From the IMG/VR virus record IMGVR_UViG_3300025880_001831, positions 1 to 22,330 of that record: 22,330 nt of DNA, one strand, 5' to 3'. Position 1 is the stretch's first letter. Each line of letters opens with the position of its first letter. Of the stretch, positions 6,752 through 21,817 are shown piece by piece. This DNA is from a virus. The notes below the pieces were generated by a model, which did no database searches, was not told where the DNA came from, and saw only the letters and a list, made by a program, of their open reading frames with translations. The position numbers were made by a program, and so were the translations under genes.

Positions 6752-7067
6752 AAAAGGTGATGTAATCACCGTAAAACTAAGCACAGGGGAAGAACTAGTG
6801 TCACGATTTGAAAGTTCTAACTCAGACGAACTTAAACTGGTAAAACCCACTGTGCTTACACTTAATCCTCAAAATGGACAAGCAATGCTTATTGCATGGC
6901 TAATGAGTATCGATGCACACAACAGTGAACCAGTTAGTGTCAAAGGCAGTCAAATTGTAGCAACAGCAAGGACAATCAAAACCCTTGCAGACAGCTACAC
7001 ACAAAGTACTAGTGGAATTACACCTGCAAGTTCATTGGGCGGGTTAACCGAGAGTCTAAAACTCTAA
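6729..7067 (+). CDS. Small Sm-like (Lsm-type) beta-barrel protein, putative
   Basis: 112 aa. Residues about 7-55 (FKKGDVITVKLSTGEELVSRFESSNSDELKLVKP...) show the short-strand pattern of Sm/Lsm or SH3-like barrels: GDxVTVxLxxGEExxxx, an acidic turn, then a hydrophobic strand. The C-terminal third is Ser/Thr-rich and probably flexible. Fold assignment is by pattern only; RNA binding is not shown. The ATG at 6729 lies inside the glutaredoxin gene. It sits at the end of the nrd run, immediately before a late promoter. Confidence 0.7.
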   Translation: MLVISNFKKGDVITVKLSTGEELVSRFESSNSDELKLVKPTVLTLNPQNGQAMLIAWLMSIDAHNSEPVSVKGSQIVATARTIKTLADSYTQSTSGITPASSLGGLTESLKL

Positions 7068-12977: not shown

Positions 12978-13670
12978 ATGCTAATAAACGAAATTATATC
13001 ACACGAACTTAATGAGGGTCCAAATGACCCTCATATTTTTAAAGCAATATTCCTAGCAGGAGGACCCGGCAGTGGCAAAAGCTACGTTGCCGGTAAACTT
13101 TTGAGTGGGTTTGGTTTGAAAACTGTAAACAGTGATGATATTTACGAATATTTGGCTAAAAAACAAGACTTGGATTTAAGTGATCCAGATCAAGTTTACA
13201 GTGACAGAGGGCAGGAAATACGTAGTCGTGCAAAAGAACTCACGATGTCACAGCAATCTGGTTATATACATGGCAGACTTGGTTTAGTCATTGACGGTAC
13301 CGGCAAGGACGTTAATAAAGTAAAAAAACAAAGTGAGTCTCTTAAATTGCTAGGATACGAAACAATGATGTTGTTTGTAAACACTAGCGAAGATGTAGCA
13401 CAAGCACGTAATACGCAACGAGCTCGTCGCTTACCCACTAAAGTTGTTAACAAAATGTGGAATCAAGTACAAGATAATATCATGGGCTTCCAACAAGTGT
13501 TTGGTGCAAGTAATTTCTTTGTAGTTGATAATAGCGGCGGACAAGAAGATCCAGAGCGTAAACAAAACTTTGAACAGATTTATAAAAATGTTAGAACCTG
13601 GGTAAACAGTCCTGTACGCAATAGACAAGCAATCGCTTGGCATGCGGTTCAAGCAAAATCCGATAAATAG
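12978..13670 (+). CDS. P-loop kinase (AAA_33/zeta-toxin-like), possibly packaged in the head
   Basis: 230 aa. Walker A is GGPGSGKS (residues 28-35) after a hydrophobic strand (AIFLA). NSDDIYEYL follows, as in polynucleotide- and zeta-type kinases, then LVIDGTGKD (Walker B-like strand) and an Arg-rich lid (RNTQRARRLP). The substrate is not evident: nucleotide, sugar-nucleotide, RNA end or protein are all possible. The first 13 residues (MLINEIISHELNE) stand apart from the fold and resemble a capsid-targeting sequence cleaved after L/I-x-E. It is made from a late promoter with ATG only 5 nt downstream, which also suits a virion component. Confidence 0.8.
   Translation: MLINEIISHELNEGPNDPHIFKAIFLAGGPGSGKSYVAGKLLSGFGLKTVNSDDIYEYLAKKQDLDLSDPDQVYSDRGQEIRSRAKELTMSQQSGYIHGRLGLVIDGTGKDVNKVKKQSESLKLLGYETMMLFVNTSEDVAQARNTQRARRLPTKVVNKMWNQVQDNIMGFQQVFGASNFFVVDNSGGQEDPERKQNFEQIYKNVRTWVNSPVRNRQAIAWHAVQAKSDK
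13662..13669 (+). promoter_or_regulatory. T4-type late promoter (GATAAATA)
   Basis: The box overlaps the stop codon of the kinase. The next ATG is at 13698, with AAAGGAT upstream, so this one carries a leader with a ribosome-binding site. Confidence 0.65.
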
Positions 13671-13697: not shown

Positions 13698-14045
13698 ATG
13701 TATACATACCAATGCAGTATAATACGAGTAATAGACGGGAATACGATTGATGCAATTATTGATCTTGGATTCAACGTTACTATAAGACAACGGATTAAAT
13801 TATATGGCGCTAATGTATCGGACGTTCGTAGTGATAACGAGCAAGATAGAAGCAAGGCCATAGCAAGTAAAAATCGACTGACAGAGCTATTAGGTAATGA
13901 ATTTATATGCGAAACCATTTTAAATAAAAGAGGTAAAGCAGGACGTACAATGGGAAAACTTTATACTATCGATGCTGCAGGTACAAAATCTGATGTGGGC
14001 GAGAAGATGATAACTGAAGGCTTCGCTGAGAGATTCGGGGACTAA
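13698..14045 (+). CDS. Staphylococcal-nuclease-like protein with altered active site
   Basis: 115 aa. The OB-fold pattern of SNase is visible: CSIIRVIDGNTIDAII (usual form VxDGDT), QRIKLYGANVSD (usual form RLxGIDxPE), a helix (SKNRLTELLGN), GKAGRTMGKLY (usual R87 segment) and a final KMITEGFAE helix. Relative to active members, the first Arg reads as Lys, the Asp of the GIDxPE motif is Asn, the Pro is Ser and the Glu is Asp; the second catalytic Arg is present. It is therefore either a weak nuclease or a nucleic-acid-binding remnant. AAAGGAT precedes the ATG, and a late promoter lies upstream. Confidence 0.8.
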   Translation: MYTYQCSIIRVIDGNTIDAIIDLGFNVTIRQRIKLYGANVSDVRSDNEQDRSKAIASKNRLTELLGNEFICETILNKRGKAGRTMGKLYTIDAAGTKSDVGEKMITEGFAERFGD

Positions 14046-14046
14046 A

Positions 14047-16059
14047 ATGATTTTTGGAATATTAGTAATGTTTATTGCACTGTGTATCAGTGCCGTAGCA
14101 ATATATTATAGTGTAGCAGGACTGGTCGCAATTTTTGCCGCCGCTGCCTTGCCAATTATAATTATGGGAGGTGTATTAGAAGTTGGTAAACTTGTAACCG
14201 CTGTATGGCTACACCGATATTGGCAGCGATCAGCTTGGTGGCTCAAAACTTATCTAAGCATATCAGTTGTTGTACTCATGTTTATTACAAGCATGGGTAT
14301 TTTTGGATTCTTAAGTAAAGCGCATATCGAACAGACTAGTGCTGCAAATGAACAAGTAGCACAACTGGAAAGAATGGATGCCGAGATAGTTCGTCAACAA
14401 GAGATTATCGCTAGAGCAGAAGCACGTATTGTCAAAGGCGAAGCTGATGCTGATAACCAAGACGTGGGTATCCAAGATAAAATTGATGCTGAACAAGCTA
14501 GAATCGACAATGCGTATACCAGACGTCAGCCTAGTATTGATGAACAACAAGCCATTATTACAGCGCAAGAAAACGCACTAGCAAACCGTGTAGCAGTATA
14601 CGAAGATGAAATTGCTAGTTTGGATACCGAATTAGCAAGATTAAATGGTGTAGTCGACAGCTATAGAGCCGAGCTAGAAGGCACTAGTGTTGCTAGTGTT
14701 GAACAACAAGTACAGCCTTACAGAGATCAAATTGCACAGTTGGATATAGATTTAGAACGTATCAATACACAAGCAAATGAATATGAAGCACGTATCAGCA
14801 ATATTGATATAGACACAAGTGCAGTTGATAGTTTGAAAGCACAAATTGCCGCAGTTGAAGAATCTATTGTTGTTACTACAAATAAATTACAAAGTACTGA
14901 ACGTGCTAAGATACAAGAAGGTCAAGCGATCATTGGTGTTACTAGTGACGGATTATTCGGCGGTAATACACGTAGAGCACTTGAGACTTGGGTTACAGCA
15001 CAGCAAGCTCGTATTGTTCAGCTACAATCACAAGAAACACAACTAAGAACACAAGCACAAAACACAGTGGATGCTGAACGTACTCGACTTACTGATCTGG
15101 TAAAAGATCTGCGTGGCCCACAAACAACACGTATCGACCAGCGTAAGCAATCGTTGTTGGATACTATCGATACTATACGAAATGATGCGGCTAGTGGATT
15201 AGACACAACGAAAGCAAACATACAAGCCAAGATAGATGGTGTACTAACTACAGATATTCCCACTAACAGAGAAGCACGTAAAACTGCACAAAGCACAATT
15301 ACAGAATTGCGTAACAAAGAAGATCCTAGAATCGAAAGTGCCAGAACAGAAATAGCCAGAATACGTGCAGTTGCAGAAGACGAGATTGCAAATAGCCAAA
15401 CAGTTATACAACGCCTGAGAGATCAAATACAAGTCGGCGACAATGTTGATTTAGATACACTCATTGATGAACAAAATGAACGTGTCAGACTTGCAAACAA
15501 TGAAATTGATAGTATAATTGAAACAAAGTTTGCACTACAAGCAGAAGCACGTAAGCTGGAAGCAGAAGTCGGGCCAGTAAAATATATTGCTGAATTTGTA
15601 TATGGCGGCGAAGCTGATAGAGATATACTAGAAGAGGCAGTACGTTGGGTTATACTTACAATTATATTTGTATTCGATCCACTGGCAGTTATGTTATTGA
15701 TTGCAGCACAGTATACGTTTGAATGGAATAGAAAACCAAAAGTAAAAAAGTCAGAGCCAGTGCAAGAAGATCCAGTATACGAAGATGTTGATCAACAAAT
15801 TATAGACGACGAGTTTAAAGATAGTGATATCGAAGAGTTATTAGAAAAAGCAGACCCCGAAGTTTTACAAGAGGTTGCCGACGAACTTGAAAAAGAAGTT
15901 GACAAAACACCATATGACCCATATACTGATAATAGAGAAGACAGTGAACTTAATGCACAGCAATTAAGTCAGAGACATAATATGAAATTATATAGTCCTG
16001 ACGGAAGACTTGCTAGTTCAGGAAAAACTATTAAAAGTATAAAAATTAAAAAGGATTAA
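14047..16059 (+). CDS. Large membrane-anchored coiled-coil protein with a peptidoglycan-binding-like insert
   Basis: 670 aa. Three hydrophobic segments open the protein (about residues 2-21, 23-45 and 66-88); another lies near 531-556 (VRWVILTIIFVFDPLAVMLLIA). Between them is a roughly 430-residue charged coiled coil, broken near residues 290-316 by QAIIGVTSDGLFGGNTRRALETW, which follows the peptidoglycan-binding pattern (G...DGxFGxxTxxAL..W). The C-terminal about 110 residues are acidic and then basic, probably cytoplasmic. The layout suggests an envelope-spanning protein. I cannot name the family; superinfection exclusion or envelope remodelling are possible roles. GGGG precedes the ATG, and the gene starts 1 nt after the nuclease-like gene stop. 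Confidence 0.75.
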   Translation: MIFGILVMFIALCISAVAIYYSVAGLVAIFAAAALPIIIMGGVLEVGKLVTAVWLHRYWQRSAWWLKTYLSISVVVLMFITSMGIFGFLSKAHIEQTSAANEQVAQLERMDAEIVRQQEIIARAEARIVKGEADADNQDVGIQDKIDAEQARIDNAYTRRQPSIDEQQAIITAQENALANRVAVYEDEIASLDTELARLNGVVDSYRAELEGTSVASVEQQVQPYRDQIAQLDIDLERINTQANEYEARISNIDIDTSAVDSLKAQIAAVEESIVVTTNKLQSTERAKIQEGQAIIGVTSDGLFGGNTRRALETWVTAQQARIVQLQSQETQLRTQAQNTVDAERTRLTDLVKDLRGPQTTRIDQRKQSLLDTIDTIRNDAASGLDTTKANIQAKIDGVLTTDIPTNREARKTAQSTITELRNKEDPRIESARTEIARIRAVAEDEIANSQTVIQRLRDQIQVGDNVDLDTLIDEQNERVRLANNEIDSIIETKFALQAEARKLEAEVGPVKYIAEFVYGGEADRDILEEAVRWVILTIIFVFDPLAVMLLIAAQYTFEWNRKPKVKKSEPVQEDPVYEDVDQQIIDDEFKDSDIEELLEKADPEVLQEVADELEKEVDKTPYDPYTDNREDSELNAQQLSQRHNMKLYSPDGRLASSGKTIKSIKIKKD

Positions 16060-16070
16060 ACATAAACCCA

Positions 16071-16493
16071 ATGAGGGAAAATGCAATTTTTACAGTAACA
16101 CCACCGGAACTAATGCTTCCTTCAAGTGGACCAATGGTAACAATCGTAAGTTCGAATATTAAATTTGTGCAAACGATAGAAACATTATATGATAATATTT
16201 TTAACACAGTAAGTGTAGTATTATATTACCCAAATGGAAAAATTACAGATAAAAACTTAGCATGGATGCTAAGTGTTATGCGTCTGAGTGACACTGTTTA
16301 TGTAGACTTAGACGATCTAGACGAATTAGGCATTGCGTTAGTTTTAACTGCAGATACTAAAAATGTATACATAAATGAAAAAAATAAAAAGTCGGGAGTA
16401 GTGAAAATATTGAATAGTATAGGTAAACAAATTTTTGAAAGTGTAGATGATTATAGTGCGTTTGTAATCGAGGGATTAGATTACGATGCGTAG
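16071..16493 (+). CDS. Phage protein of unknown function (140 aa)
   Basis: The gene begins 11 nt after the coiled-coil gene; the ribosome-binding site is weak. The protein has an alternating strand/helix pattern (MVTIVSSN, FVQTIETLYDNIF, SVVLYYPNG, YVDLDDLDELGIALVL, VYINEKNKKSG), consistent with a small alpha/beta domain, with a cluster of Asp residues in VYVDLDDLDELG. No signature is recognised. Its 3' end overlaps the IF-3 gene by 8 nt, so it belongs to the same translational run. Confidence 0.7.
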   Translation: MRENAIFTVTPPELMLPSSGPMVTIVSSNIKFVQTIETLYDNIFNTVSVVLYYPNGKITDKNLAWMLSVMRLSDTVYVDLDDLDELGIALVLTADTKNVYINEKNKKSGVVKILNSIGKQIFESVDDYSAFVIEGLDYDA

Positions 16494-17007
16494 ACAAGCA
16501 GAAACTCGTAAACTAATTAATAAAGATATTAAGCACCCCAATCTCAGAGTTATAAAAGAAGATGGACAACAACAGATATTGTCTCGCTATGATGCAGTAA
16601 AACTCGCAGAAAATTATGGCAAAGATCTTGTTGTTATAAATGAAAAAGCAGACCCTCCTATAGCTAAACTATTAGATGCAGGTAAATACTTTTATGAATT
16701 AAAACGTAAAGAAAAAGAAGCGGCCAAACGACAACGTGAAAGTCAAATTGTTGTTAAAGAAATGCAGTTTAAACTGGGTATCGGTGACAACGATTTTGAA
16801 ACTAAACTAAAAAACATAGATAAATTTTTAGACAAAGGCAACAAGGTTAAGTGTGTTATACGCTACAGAGGTAGAGAAAACGCTAATAAACAGCAAGGTT
16901 TCGGGATCATGGAGCGTATTGCAGATAGCCTTGAAAATAGTCACTGGGACGCCAAACCCAGCTTAAACGGAAACCGCCTAATAGGCATATTAACGAGGAA
17001 AGAATGA
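16486..17007 (+). CDS. infC: Translation initiation factor IF-3, full length
   Basis: 173 aa; both domains are present. N domain (residues about 10-75): LINKDIKHPNLRVIKEDGQ, then DLVVINEKADPPIAKLLDAGKYFYE, the standard IF-3 signature. The Lys/Glu-rich linker (72-88) leads to the C domain, with VVKEMQFK, DNDFETKLKNIDKFLDKGNKVKCVIRYRGRE and the final NRLIGILTRKE. IF-3 binds the 30S subunit, keeps it apart from 50S, and proofreads start codon and initiator tRNA. Length is close to cellular forms, so this is an intact gene and not a fragment. The start at 16486 has GAGGGA upstream. bS21 follows by an ATGA overlap. Confidence 0.93.
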   Translation: MRRQAETRKLINKDIKHPNLRVIKEDGQQQILSRYDAVKLAENYGKDLVVINEKADPPIAKLLDAGKYFYELKRKEKEAAKRQRESQIVVKEMQFKLGIGDNDFETKLKNIDKFLDKGNKVKCVIRYRGRENANKQQGFGIMERIADSLENSHWDAKPSLNGNRLIGILTRKE

Positions 17008-17243
17008 ACAAAAATTATAACAAACCGTCATATGAAAAACGTGGATTATATGTAGAGGTACGTGGTAACGACGTGGCTCGTGCATTACGAAAACTTAAGA
17101 AACTAGTAAACGCAGAAGGCATGGTCAAAGACATGCGTAAAAAAGAATTTTACGAAAAACCTAGTGCAGTTAAAAAACGTGAAAAAGCACAAGCACGTAA
17201 ACGACATCTTAAAGAATTAGCTAAAAAGAACGAAAACTTATAA
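17004..17243 (+). CDS. rpsU: 30S ribosomal protein bS21
   Basis: 79 aa, basic. The family pattern is clear: LYVEVRGNDVARALRKLKKLVNAEGMVKDMRKKEFYEKPSAVKKREKAQARKR (usual form VxVRxNExxxxALRRFKR...RxREFYEKPSxxRxRKxxxAxRR). bS21 sits on the 30S platform beside the anti-Shine-Dalgarno end of 16S rRNA. Phage-borne copies are known from marine phages and can be incorporated into host ribosomes. It is translated by overlap with IF-3 (AGGAAAG then ATGA). The pair IF-3 plus bS21 is what makes this locus unusual. Confidence 0.93.
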   Translation: MNKNYNKPSYEKRGLYVEVRGNDVARALRKLKKLVNAEGMVKDMRKKEFYEKPSAVKKREKAQARKRHLKELAKKNENL

Positions 17244-17248
17244 AAAAG

Positions 17249-17280
17249 GTGTTGACATTACGGTCAACACATACTATATT
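17249..17280 (+). promoter_or_regulatory. Consensus sigma70-type promoter overlapped by an inverted repeat
   Basis: TTGACA (17252-17257), 17-nt spacer, TATATT (17275-17280). GTGTTGAC (17249-17256) and GTCAACAC (17263-17270) form a perfect 8-bp inverted repeat over the -35 box, the usual place for a repressor site. Without a T run it is a poor terminator for bS21. Transcription should begin near 17287. Confidence 0.75.
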
Positions 17281-17299
17281 ATATACATAGCTTGAGTAT

Positions 17300-17386
17300 T
17301 TTGAAATACACACCGGAGTAGATATACCTGCTTTCCAGTGTATGGGACAAGACCTCACAAGGGTACAAGTGAGTGTGTATTTCAAA
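17300..17386 (+). ncRNA. Long stem with two inner hairpins (multibranch RNA fold)
   Basis: TTTGAAATACACAC (17300-17313) pairs perfectly with GTGTGTATTTCAAA (17373-17386). Inside are a GTAG/CTGC hairpin (about 17315-17336, extended by GGA/TCC) and a CTCAC/GTGAG hairpin (17354-17373). An alternative pairing of ACAC (17310-17313) with GTGT (17338-17341) would compete with the outer stem, as in switching RNAs. It does not match a riboswitch class I can recall with confidence. Confidence 0.6.
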
Positions 17387-17574
17387 GTAGCTCGAACATT
17401 TAGTTACTTTATTTCCTAACTGTAACAAGAAAGGACCCCACTAGATAAGAATTATAGTGGCACTACAAGAGTAACAACGTAGTAGGGGTTGCGCCATAAT
17501 ACGCACGTTAGGGACCACGGTTAGTTCCTAAATTACTAAATAAACATGTAGATGCCAATAGGGTCTACGTTATC

Positions 17575-17599: not shown

Positions 17600-17797
17600 A
17601 TGCAAGCAAATTACATCAACGGACTAGTGGACCAAATCCACACACAAACAAAAACTTTCCTCAACACAATTGATCCAAGTGAACAGTACACAACGCCTCT
17701 ACGGGCAATGGCTGACGCAAACACAGAGTTTGCTAAATCTTGGGCAACTGCAACAGAATCAATGACCACTGCTTATACAGCGGCATTGAAAGCGTAA
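17600..17797 (+). CDS. Small helical protein, possibly phasin-like (65 aa)
   Basis: ATG at 17600 with AAAAGGAG upstream, the site that is paired in the thermometer-like hairpin. The product is amphipathic and helical (YINGLVDQIHTQTKTFLNTI, FAKSWATATESMTTAYTAALKA), Ala/Thr-rich toward the end, with no Cys or catalytic residue. The second half recalls phasin-type helices, but the resemblance is weak. It is followed after 11 nt by the Hsp20 gene and is probably co-transcribed with it. Confidence 0.7.
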   Translation: MQANYINGLVDQIHTQTKTFLNTIDPSEQYTTPLRAMADANTEFAKSWATATESMTTAYTAALKA

Positions 17798-17808
17798 GGG
17801 GATTGGAT

Positions 17809-18243
17809 ATGAATAGATTAACAACATTAGACATCAATAAACTTACTCCATATGCTGTTGGCTTTGATAGAGTATTTGACGATATGTTCAAATATGTAAA
17901 TCATAACCAAAATAGTACAGGGGGATATCCACCTTACAACATCGTACGTGATGGTGAGAAGTTTCAAATTGAAATTGCACTAGCTGGTATTGCCAAAGAA
18001 GATTTGGATATTACAGTAGCAGAGGGTGTACTTACAGTTGAACACACACCAGAAGGTGAAGTAGAGTCTAGCGGATGGGAATGGTTACACAAAGGCATCA
18101 GCCAGCGTCATTTCAAACGCAACTTTACACTTAGCGACGACATTGTAGTAAATGGATCTAGAATGGAAAATGGTATGCTATTCATCGAACTAGAGCGTAT
18201 TATTCCAGAAGAGAAGAAACCACGCACTATTCAAATCAAGTAA
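17809..18243 (+). CDS. hsp20: Small heat-shock protein, Hsp20/IbpA type
   Basis: 144 aa from ATG 17809 (MNRLTTLDINKLTPYAVGFDRVFDDMF); the frame is open upstream but GGGG about 9 nt before this ATG and the typical IbpA N terminus fix the start. The alpha-crystallin domain spans about residues 40-135: YPPYNIVRDGEKFQIEIALAGIAKEDLDITV, then GWEWLHKGISQRHFKRNFTLSDDI and NGMLFIELERIIPEE, with the C-terminal I-x-I anchor (IQI). It holds unfolded proteins for refolding. T4-like marine phages often carry such a gene. Here it lies second in a run headed by a thermometer-like leader. Confidence 0.95.
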   Translation: MNRLTTLDINKLTPYAVGFDRVFDDMFKYVNHNQNSTGGYPPYNIVRDGEKFQIEIALAGIAKEDLDITVAEGVLTVEHTPEGEVESSGWEWLHKGISQRHFKRNFTLSDDIVVNGSRMENGMLFIELERIIPEEKKPRTIQIK

Positions 18244-18291: not shown

Positions 18292-18594
18292 ATGGAACAA
18301 TCAACAGAACAAACTATAAATAATATTGGGCTAAACACACCTAGACCTAGTAAATATAAAGTCGTGCTACATAACGATGACCATACACCCATGGAGTTTG
18401 TTATCGAATTGCTTAAAAATGTATATAATCATAACCAAAATAGTGCTGAAGAAGTTACATCACATGTACACAACGAAGGCAAAGGTGTTGCAGGTATATA
18501 CTACTATGAAATTGCTGAACAAAAAGTAAGCGAAAGTTTACTATTCAGCAGAACAGCCGGATATCCACTCAGTTTTGACATAGAAGAGGTTTAA
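18292..18594 (+). CDS. clpS: ClpS-like ATP-dependent Clp protease adaptor
   Basis: 100 aa. ClpS core: KYKVVLHNDDHTPMEFVIELLKNVY with the N-degron pocket residues NDD (N28, D29, D30), T32 and M34; then HVHNEGKGVAGIYYYEIAEQKV with the pocket His (H60); and YPLSFDIEE. ClpS delivers N-degron substrates to ClpAP, so a phage copy could redirect host proteolysis. A flexible N-terminal tail (residues 1-20) is present, as needed for ClpA control. It is transcribed from a late promoter 5 nt before the ATG, with no ribosome-binding site, and its stop abuts the GMP reductase start. Confidence 0.93.
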   Translation: MEQSTEQTINNIGLNTPRPSKYKVVLHNDDHTPMEFVIELLKNVYNHNQNSAEEVTSHVHNEGKGVAGIYYYEIAEQKVSESLLFSRTAGYPLSFDIEEV

Positions 18595-21386: not shown

Positions 21387-21557
21387 ATGGTTAATATACT
21401 ATACAATAACCTTGCGAGCTTGTTTGCGAGGAAAAATAAGCACTCTGACGATATGCGACTATACGCAAAAACAGAATACAAAAATGATTGGCAATTTGCT
21501 TATCACTACATGATGACACACAACGGCAATGGGCCACGAATGGGAGTACACAACTAA
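21387..21557 (+). CDS. Micro-gene of unknown function (56 aa)
   Basis: ATG at 21387 has GGAGA 8 nt upstream and runs to TAA at 21555-21557, whose last base begins the next ATG. The product starts MVNILYNNLASLFARKNKHSDD and ends HYMMTHNGNGPRMGVHN; it is helical, basic at first and His/Asn-rich at the end. It is the first gene after the structured leader. I do not recognise it; its N-terminal part loosely resembles the leading helix of small DUF1127-type proteins. Confidence 0.65.
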   Translation: MVNILYNNLASLFARKNKHSDDMRLYAKTEYKNDWQFAYHYMMTHNGNGPRMGVHN

Positions 21558-21817
21558 TGACACAAGCAATTTTAACAGCATCAACTATCTTAACAGACGC
21601 AGTACAAGGACTGATGGACCTTATACATGATATGAAAATTAAATCACAAAAACGTGCATTGGTACGTAAAACAAAAATTGAACTGTCAAGACTTTCAGAC
21701 TATGAGTTAAAAGACTTAGGTATTGGTCGTAGTGATATTACTTCAATTGCTAATGGAACCTTTCACGATAACAGAAGTGTTGTAGAAGCAAACCGCAACT
21801 TGGGAGGTTGGGTATAA
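21557..21817 (+). CDS. DUF1127 (YjiS-like) protein (86 aa)
   Basis: Start at 21557 chosen because it overlaps the previous stop (TAATG) and has GGGAG about 10 nt upstream; the frame is open earlier without support. The DUF1127 signature is at about residues 35-62: LVRKTKIELSRLSDYELKDLGIGRSDI. This family of small Arg-rich proteins is widespread in Alphaproteobacteria; some members are linked to RNA turnover and stress. The extra N-terminal helix (TQAILTASTILTDAVQGLMDLIHDM) may be an interaction or membrane-surface segment. Phage-borne copies may mimic host ones, but that is inferred. Confidence 0.85.
   Translation: MTQAILTASTILTDAVQGLMDLIHDMKIKSQKRALVRKTKIELSRLSDYELKDLGIGRSDITSIANGTFHDNRSVVEANRNLGGWV

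Follow-up and report, generated by a model that had tools for sequence, protein, structure and literature searches.

The 22,330-base stretch of viral DNA analysed here, hereafter the window, is an IMG/VR fragment (virus record IMGVR_UViG_3300025880_001831) that encodes a full-length translation initiation factor IF-3 and an overlapping ribosomal protein bS21, followed on the same strand by Hsp20 and ClpS. We propose, with a probability of roughly 0.55, that this arrangement supplies IF-3 late and free of feedback, together with coupled bS21, and that this would raise initiation on phage mRNAs, within a protein-quality cassette. The genes, folds, conservation, synteny, promoter motifs and start-codon class of the module are documented below. 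What appears to be new is the immediate and conserved infC-rpsU adjacency, extended into a ClpX/Hsp20/ClpS cassette; earlier publications cover phage IF3, phage-encoded bS21 and the presence of Hsp20/Clp genes around bS21, each separately. No description of the cassette as such was found in the open-access literature searched.

The infC gene (16486..17007, + strand) starts with ATG and encodes a 173-residue protein belonging to phrog_9787. Both of its Pfam domains are complete, with IF3_N (9.6e-21) covering residues 11-79 and profile positions 1-70 of 70, and IF3_C (1.1e-23) covering residues 88-172 and positions 1-86 of 86. The rpsU gene (17004..17243, + strand) encodes a 79-residue bS21 that matches Ribosomal_S21 (PF01165) at 2.6e-17 and 62.7 bits, against a cut-off of 27, over profile positions 2-54 of 55. 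All these domain scores lie well over the Pfam cut-offs. The profile and the alignment place the conserved basic helices of the Ribosomal_S21 domain in the window bS21, which also carries, when aligned with E. coli bS21, an N-terminal extension of about 13 residues rich in basic and aromatic residues. The two genes overlap by ATGA at 17004-17007. The Shine-Dalgarno (SD) sequence of bS21 (GAGGAAAGAATGA) sits within the final IF-3 codons, and GAGGAAAGA ahead of the bS21 ATG is identical in 10 of the 10 sequences compared. An earlier note on this DNA had described a complete two-domain IF-3 beside bS21 with an ATGA overlap, and the coordinates and Pfam matches bear it out.

Near pairs with enough changes gave dN/dS values of approximately 0.09-0.12 for IF-3 and 0.05-0.17 for bS21, with 0.085 for the window IF-3 compared to that of L002. 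The exception is IF-3 from the pair L005-L011, whose value of 0.59 is derived from just 2 synonymous and 5 nonsynonymous changes. By this measure purifying selection on both genes is strong; the IF-3 frame is conserved in relatives, with both domains complete, rather than decayed. Chance or decayed open reading frames are ruled out for infC and rpsU by the complete domains and the dN/dS values. The AlphaFold (AF2) model of the window IF-3, built from a 29-sequence alignment, has a pLDDT of 90.5 and resembles the 30S-bound IF-3 (5lmn_X) with a TM of 0.85; helix 65-86 links the N- and C-terminal domains. Residues Y75, K110, R129 and R133 of E. coli IF-3 are kept in the window protein, and R99, R112 and R116 are changed to lysine. 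The 30S-contact and discrimination residues are thus, in the alignment, kept or conservatively changed. On balance, we lean towards infC-rpsU being a genuine, selected, phage-made translation-initiation module, its function being predicted from the families of the two proteins.

A scan of IMG/VR with the IF-3 alignment, as the earlier note had proposed for the infC-rpsU pair, yielded 80 loci, 53 of which are non-redundant (≤95% identical, window counted). The bS21 start lies at most 120 nt past the IF-3 end in 33 of these 53, and 30 of the 33 paired loci have the order IF-3-bS21-Hsp20-ClpS on one strand. ClpX is located directly ahead of IF-3 in 12 cassette loci, none of them from the window's clade; the 8 window-clade contigs searched, which are fragments, gave no ClpX hit above the cut-off. 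The cassette loci include IF-3s merely 30-42% identical to the window IF-3, and one cassette lies on a 452 kb jumbo contig (L151). Pairwise distances of the four cassette proteins co-vary (Mantel r 0.80-0.90, with 0 of 2000 permutations as high). Because the gene order is kept across very distant viruses, the cassette is very likely a functional unit, with host-translation takeover as its predicted role. A second scan, seeded with bS21, found IF-3 present in 32 of 37 cases; both scans share the bias of being seeded with window relatives, so these cassette frequencies hold for this part of the tree. Among 80 bacterial infC loci, bS21 was found in none within the flank examined, up to about 3 kb, and a fragment of a host operon is rejected on this ground.

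Such grouping might simply reflect late use, with four housekeeping boosts assembled in one island and no specific joint action of IF-3 and bS21. Hsp20 and Clp proteases are frequent near phage bS21, which is transcribed late, in many phages for which no IF-3 was reported (PMC9723584), and separate promoter motifs precede hsp20 and clpS in the window. Salicola phage SCTP-2 has bS21-ClpS without IF-3, and nearby bS21 is absent in about 20 of the 53 viral IF-3 loci, so both proteins can work apart, which counts against the supply reading. Within the 33 paired loci, however, neither infC nor rpsU is found alone, and bS21 translation is tied to IF-3 by the 4-nt overlap and by the SD buried in infC. 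We consider a mere island of late functions very improbable. Since both genes are intact, conserved and syntenic, a joint role at the 30S subunit is the natural reading.

In the IF-3 tree, a single branch (92/96) has 50 of the 54 viral sequences on the same side, and the window IF-3 falls inside well-supported viral sets. The remaining four (L165, L167, L170 and L177) seem either to be lineages of their own or to be poorly placed in the tree. A recent capture of IF-3 from a host is rejected because of this split and because the closest bacterial IF-3s found are about 35-44% identical and come from mixed phyla. A permuted alphaproteobacterial tmRNA is encoded by four related phages, approximately 9 kb downstream of the cassette (L005 19050-19426, L010 19982-20438, L011 19948-20332 and L013 18839-19348), with the tags ANDNYAPEMALAA, ANDNRAPAMAIAA and ANANRAPEMALAA in these relatives. 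This suggests an alphaproteobacterial host, and the hosts of the cassette viruses are probably alphaproteobacteria. Two-piece tmRNA in marine phages has been published (PMC9004378). The T4-type major capsid protein gp23 is present in L151 and L163 and was not found in the window-clade fragments.

The third and fourth cassette genes of the window encode a small heat-shock protein (hsp20, 17809..18243, + strand; PF00011 4.8e-18, phrog_432 1.4e-38) and a ClpAP N-degron adaptor (clpS, 18292..18594, + strand; PF02617 2.5e-27). Residues N34, D35, T38 and H66 of the N-degron pocket are kept in 33 of 33 phage ClpS proteins, and M40 in 24 of 33; the window ClpS reads NDDHTPMEF. The conserved pocket makes ClpS action plausible. 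ClpS, and ClpX where present, may then send host IF3, bS21 or competitors to ClpP, with the phage copies taking their place. The conservation of the cassette with ClpX/ClpS and the intact pocket agree with such proteolysis, and a protease that removes host bS21 has been speculated for bS21 phages (PMC9976891). Against it stand the lack of a ClpX match above cut-off in the window-clade fragments searched and the fact that ClpS might just as well act in general late proteolysis, and we find replacement through proteolysis unlikely.

The genes from 13698 to 17243 are packed head to tail in what is presumed to be a late operon. Its first gene encodes a phrog_452 endonuclease (13698..14045, + strand). 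The next, g14047 (14047..16059, + strand), encodes a large membrane/coiled-coil protein and is kept directly upstream in close relatives; its spacing, 12 nt to the next gene, would place it in the infC transcription unit. The following gene, g16071 (16071..16493, + strand), overlaps infC and encodes a conserved protein with no assigned function. A homologue is present just upstream of IF-3 in 20 window-clade loci, in the position taken by clpX in jumbo-type relatives. Its AF2 model has a pLDDT of 88, and a fold search returned only a weak deoxyribosyltransferase-like match (E 2e-3). Elsewhere in the window, positions 21488-21817 encode a DUF1127 protein, a small arginine-rich domain of host type here found in a phage, and positions 3-251, the end of an open frame, consist of tandem repeats of 15-16 residues (GGYDEVKPQRRSPSNT).

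A T4-type late promoter motif, ATAAATA (13663..13669, + strand), precedes the operon. The sequence GATAAATAGTATA or a close variant is kept before the nuclease gene in 7 of 8 orthologous places, and the interval between 13663 and infC contains no further late motif. The motif NATAAATA is the T4-type late promoter of cyanophages (PMC2984593), and in 17 related contigs late motifs number 105 on the + strand versus 8 on the other. From these motif positions, T4-like NATAAATA late promoters precede late genes in the window relatives. Just after rpsU is a sigma-70-like promoter, TTGACA-N17-TATATT (17252..17280, + strand), which matches 11 of 12 consensus positions; TTGAC...TATATT lies at the same place in the relatives compared. 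A second 11/12 match is located at 15899, inside g14047, so expression earlier than late may occur.

The earlier note had suggested that the module re-tunes 30S subunits toward phage mRNAs. SD pairing stronger than -4 kcal/mol was observed for 64% of window genes versus 17% of random places; the count covers 33 listed starts, among which g11099 and hsp20 are misplaced, leaving the picture unchanged. By this estimate phage genes mostly have ordinary, strong SD sites, so there is no odd class of start sites that needs re-tuning on the SD side, and re-tuning toward SD-less messages is rejected. The suggestion thus holds as far as conserved, syntenic genes for the 30S initiation site are concerned, but not for the SD sites. 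Taken as re-specification, the idea would have phage IF-3 and bS21 alter the start sites that the 30S subunit accepts, for example with the anti-SD exposed or proofreading relaxed, so that phage mRNAs win over those of the host. Both proteins are located at the centre of start-site selection, the window bS21 has its N-terminal extension, and in Flavobacterium, bS21 changes both the selectivity for mRNAs and the dependence on IF3 (PMC9976891). The ordinary SDs on most phage genes, and the kept or conservatively changed residues linked to start discrimination (Y75, R99/K99) in phage IF-3, speak against this re-specification, which appears rather doubtful.

A second class of initiation, which would also suit re-specification, is nevertheless predicted. 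Several SD-less genes have ATAAATA followed by ATG exactly 5 nt on, at 7067, 12966, 18280 (clpS) and 19776 in the window (4 sites versus 0.18 expected), and 36 such sites versus 1.55 expected occur in the 17 related contigs, which are partly redundant. Orthologues of four genes, clpS included, recur among them, and the pattern is also enriched over a reversed-pattern control in Pelagibacter phage Mosig and in the 452 kb L151. Since in T4 the late TATA box is found roughly one helical turn ahead of the transcription start (PMC2988020), the RNA 5' end would be at or next to the ATG. We thus predict a class of leaderless late mRNAs, clpS among them. Extra or high IF3 inhibits leaderless translation, according to reviews (PMC9031893). 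This conflicts with a simple over-supply of IF3, which is therefore not obviously good for all late genes, and it is the sharpest question raised by the cassette.

The start codon of infC bears on supply. An in-frame ATT at 16480 is a possible alternative start in the window, but ATG at 16486 is better supported because the corresponding M[RK]xF site in relatives has ATG or TTG. Aligned at this site, TTG appears to serve as the start in L109, L123, L134, L137, L139 and L140, and ATG in other close relatives. In bacteria, infC often begins with an AUU-type codon, which allows IF3 to repress its own synthesis. An ATG, GTG or TTG start is unavailable before the domain in 30 of the 79 bacterial loci but in only 2 of the 52 from phages (p 2.7e-6), these counts being bounds since the availability of a codon does not prove its use. 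Judged by available codons, phage infC is almost entirely without the AUU/AUA/AUC-type start that IF3 autoregulation requires. This near-loss fits an extra supply of IF-3, and we infer from the start-codon class that phage infC has left the IF3 feedback loop.

Between rpsU and hsp20, the window contains a conserved RNA element, R1 (17479..17572, + strand), ahead of g17600 and hsp20. It forms three helices, in which 9 of 17 pairs are changed on both sides and 99.3% of cells are paired (16 sequences). A CTAAATA motif (17536-17542) and a TAAATAA late-promoter-like stretch are embedded in R1. The element lies at the same place in L002-L013, L019, L116-L138 and L217, and the R1 model matches 24 cassette loci, with weak matches before hsp20 in Mosig (E 0.005) and L162 (E 0.011); a 19-base pattern from its core is found in 56 stretches of IMG/VR. 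The window part has no Rfam match, a DNA-level search of named phages with the intergenic RNA gave no match, and R1 was not found in six alphaproteobacterial genomes, in a search run without a positive control. R1 is thus not assigned to a known Rfam family; in relatives, what lies upstream is manA RNA (RF01745), located between bS21 and R1 (L019 6292-6499, L012 10769-10973 and L005 10788-10991) and above the gathering score in L019 only. The window has a long hairpin at about 17295-17395 in its place, and seems to have lost manA RNA while retaining this hairpin instead. Between R1 and hsp20, g17600 (17600..17797, + strand) encodes a short protein that reads as phasin-like from its sequence and has no family match in Pfam or PHROG; it is kept in most close relatives and absent in some, such as L019.

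For the late, feedback-free supply that we favour, the ATAAATA promoter at 13663 would drive one late transcript from which IF-3 would be made, and the ATGA overlap would couple translation of bS21 to it. Phage infC, starting with ATG, GTG or TTG, would escape the IF3 feedback that holds down many host infC genes. The phage IF-3 would split 70S ribosomes and keep 30S subunits available, and the phage bS21, whose added N-terminus would bind RNA, would exchange onto the 30S next to the anti-SD. Together they may raise initiation on abundant, mostly SD-led phage late mRNAs, with Hsp20, ClpS and, in jumbo relatives, ClpX completing a late cassette for protein production and quality. We infer the expression, 30S binding, exchange and initiation gain of phage IF-3 and bS21 from their genes. 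A pelagiphage bS21 enters E. coli ribosomes, which speaks for the supply reading; the near inactivity of these ribosomes in E. coli extract counts against it (PMC6375957). A more elaborate proposal is that clpX-infC-rpsU-hsp20-clpS forms a ribosome-remodelling cassette, in which phage IF-3, released from IF3 feedback, and bS21 are installed on the 30S, ClpX/ClpS remove the host counterparts, and the IF-3:bS21 balance orders SD-led versus leaderless late translation; we regard this as quite improbable. The purpose of bS21 and IF-3 in phages has been a standing question since 2019-2020. A coupled, late-driven IF-3/bS21 cassette with protease adaptors offers a defined unit for deletion, expression and purification, and links the takeover of translation by phages to start-codon feedback and leaderless initiation, both of which have established assays in laboratory strains.

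Many jumbo phages are known to encode full-length IF-3 (PMC7162821, PMC7824862), including 121Q/RaK2-like phages, Atu_ph07, AP-J-162 and the huge phages of Al-Shayeb et al. 2020, and the jumbo-phage protein shares PHROG 9787 with the window IF-3. Translation hijack is proposed for both: IF3 and bS21 have been put forward as host-translation hijackers in huge phages, where bS21 likewise carries N-terminal extensions of basic/aromatic character (PMC7162821). Reviews of jumbo phages mention IF3, ClpS and Hsp20 separately (PMC7824862), and in Sinorhizobium phage AP-J-162, which has both IF-3 and bS21, ClpX adjoins IF-3 (PMC11242549). The idea that an intact IF-3 beside bS21 is unusual thus stands for the immediate, conserved adjacency but not for the presence of IF-3, or of both genes, in a phage. 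Unlike the window, jumbo-phage IF3 reports describe no overlapping infC-rpsU pair.

Named phages would, from their gene orders, carry worn versions of the cassette. Agrobacterium phage Atu_ph07 has ClpX-IF-3, then bS21 about 1.3 kb on, followed by Hsp20, thymidine kinase and ClpS; Phosso has ClpX-IF-3 with bS21 7 kb further on; SCTP-2 has ClpX-bS21-ClpS and no IF-3; and Mosig has bS21 and Hsp20 with no IF-3 in its whole genome. The bS21 proteins of Atu_ph07 (gp713, L024 5097-5348) and SCTP-2 (gp193, L186 7989-8249) are annotated only as hypothetical proteins. The phage bS21 systems studied previously (Mizuno 2019, Chen 2022), such as HTVC008M, Mosig and huge Bacteroidetes-linked phages, have Hsp20/Clp neighbours as in the cassette, and those checked are without IF-3, unlike the window cassette. 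The bacterial gene order offers a further comparison. In the bacterial infC-rpmI-rplT operon a ribosomal protein gene lies downstream of IF-3, as in the phage pair, but the partner here is bS21, which is absent within about 3 kb of the 80 bacterial infC genes. Finally, bacterial infC often requires a start other than ATG, GTG or TTG, whereas phage infC hardly ever does.
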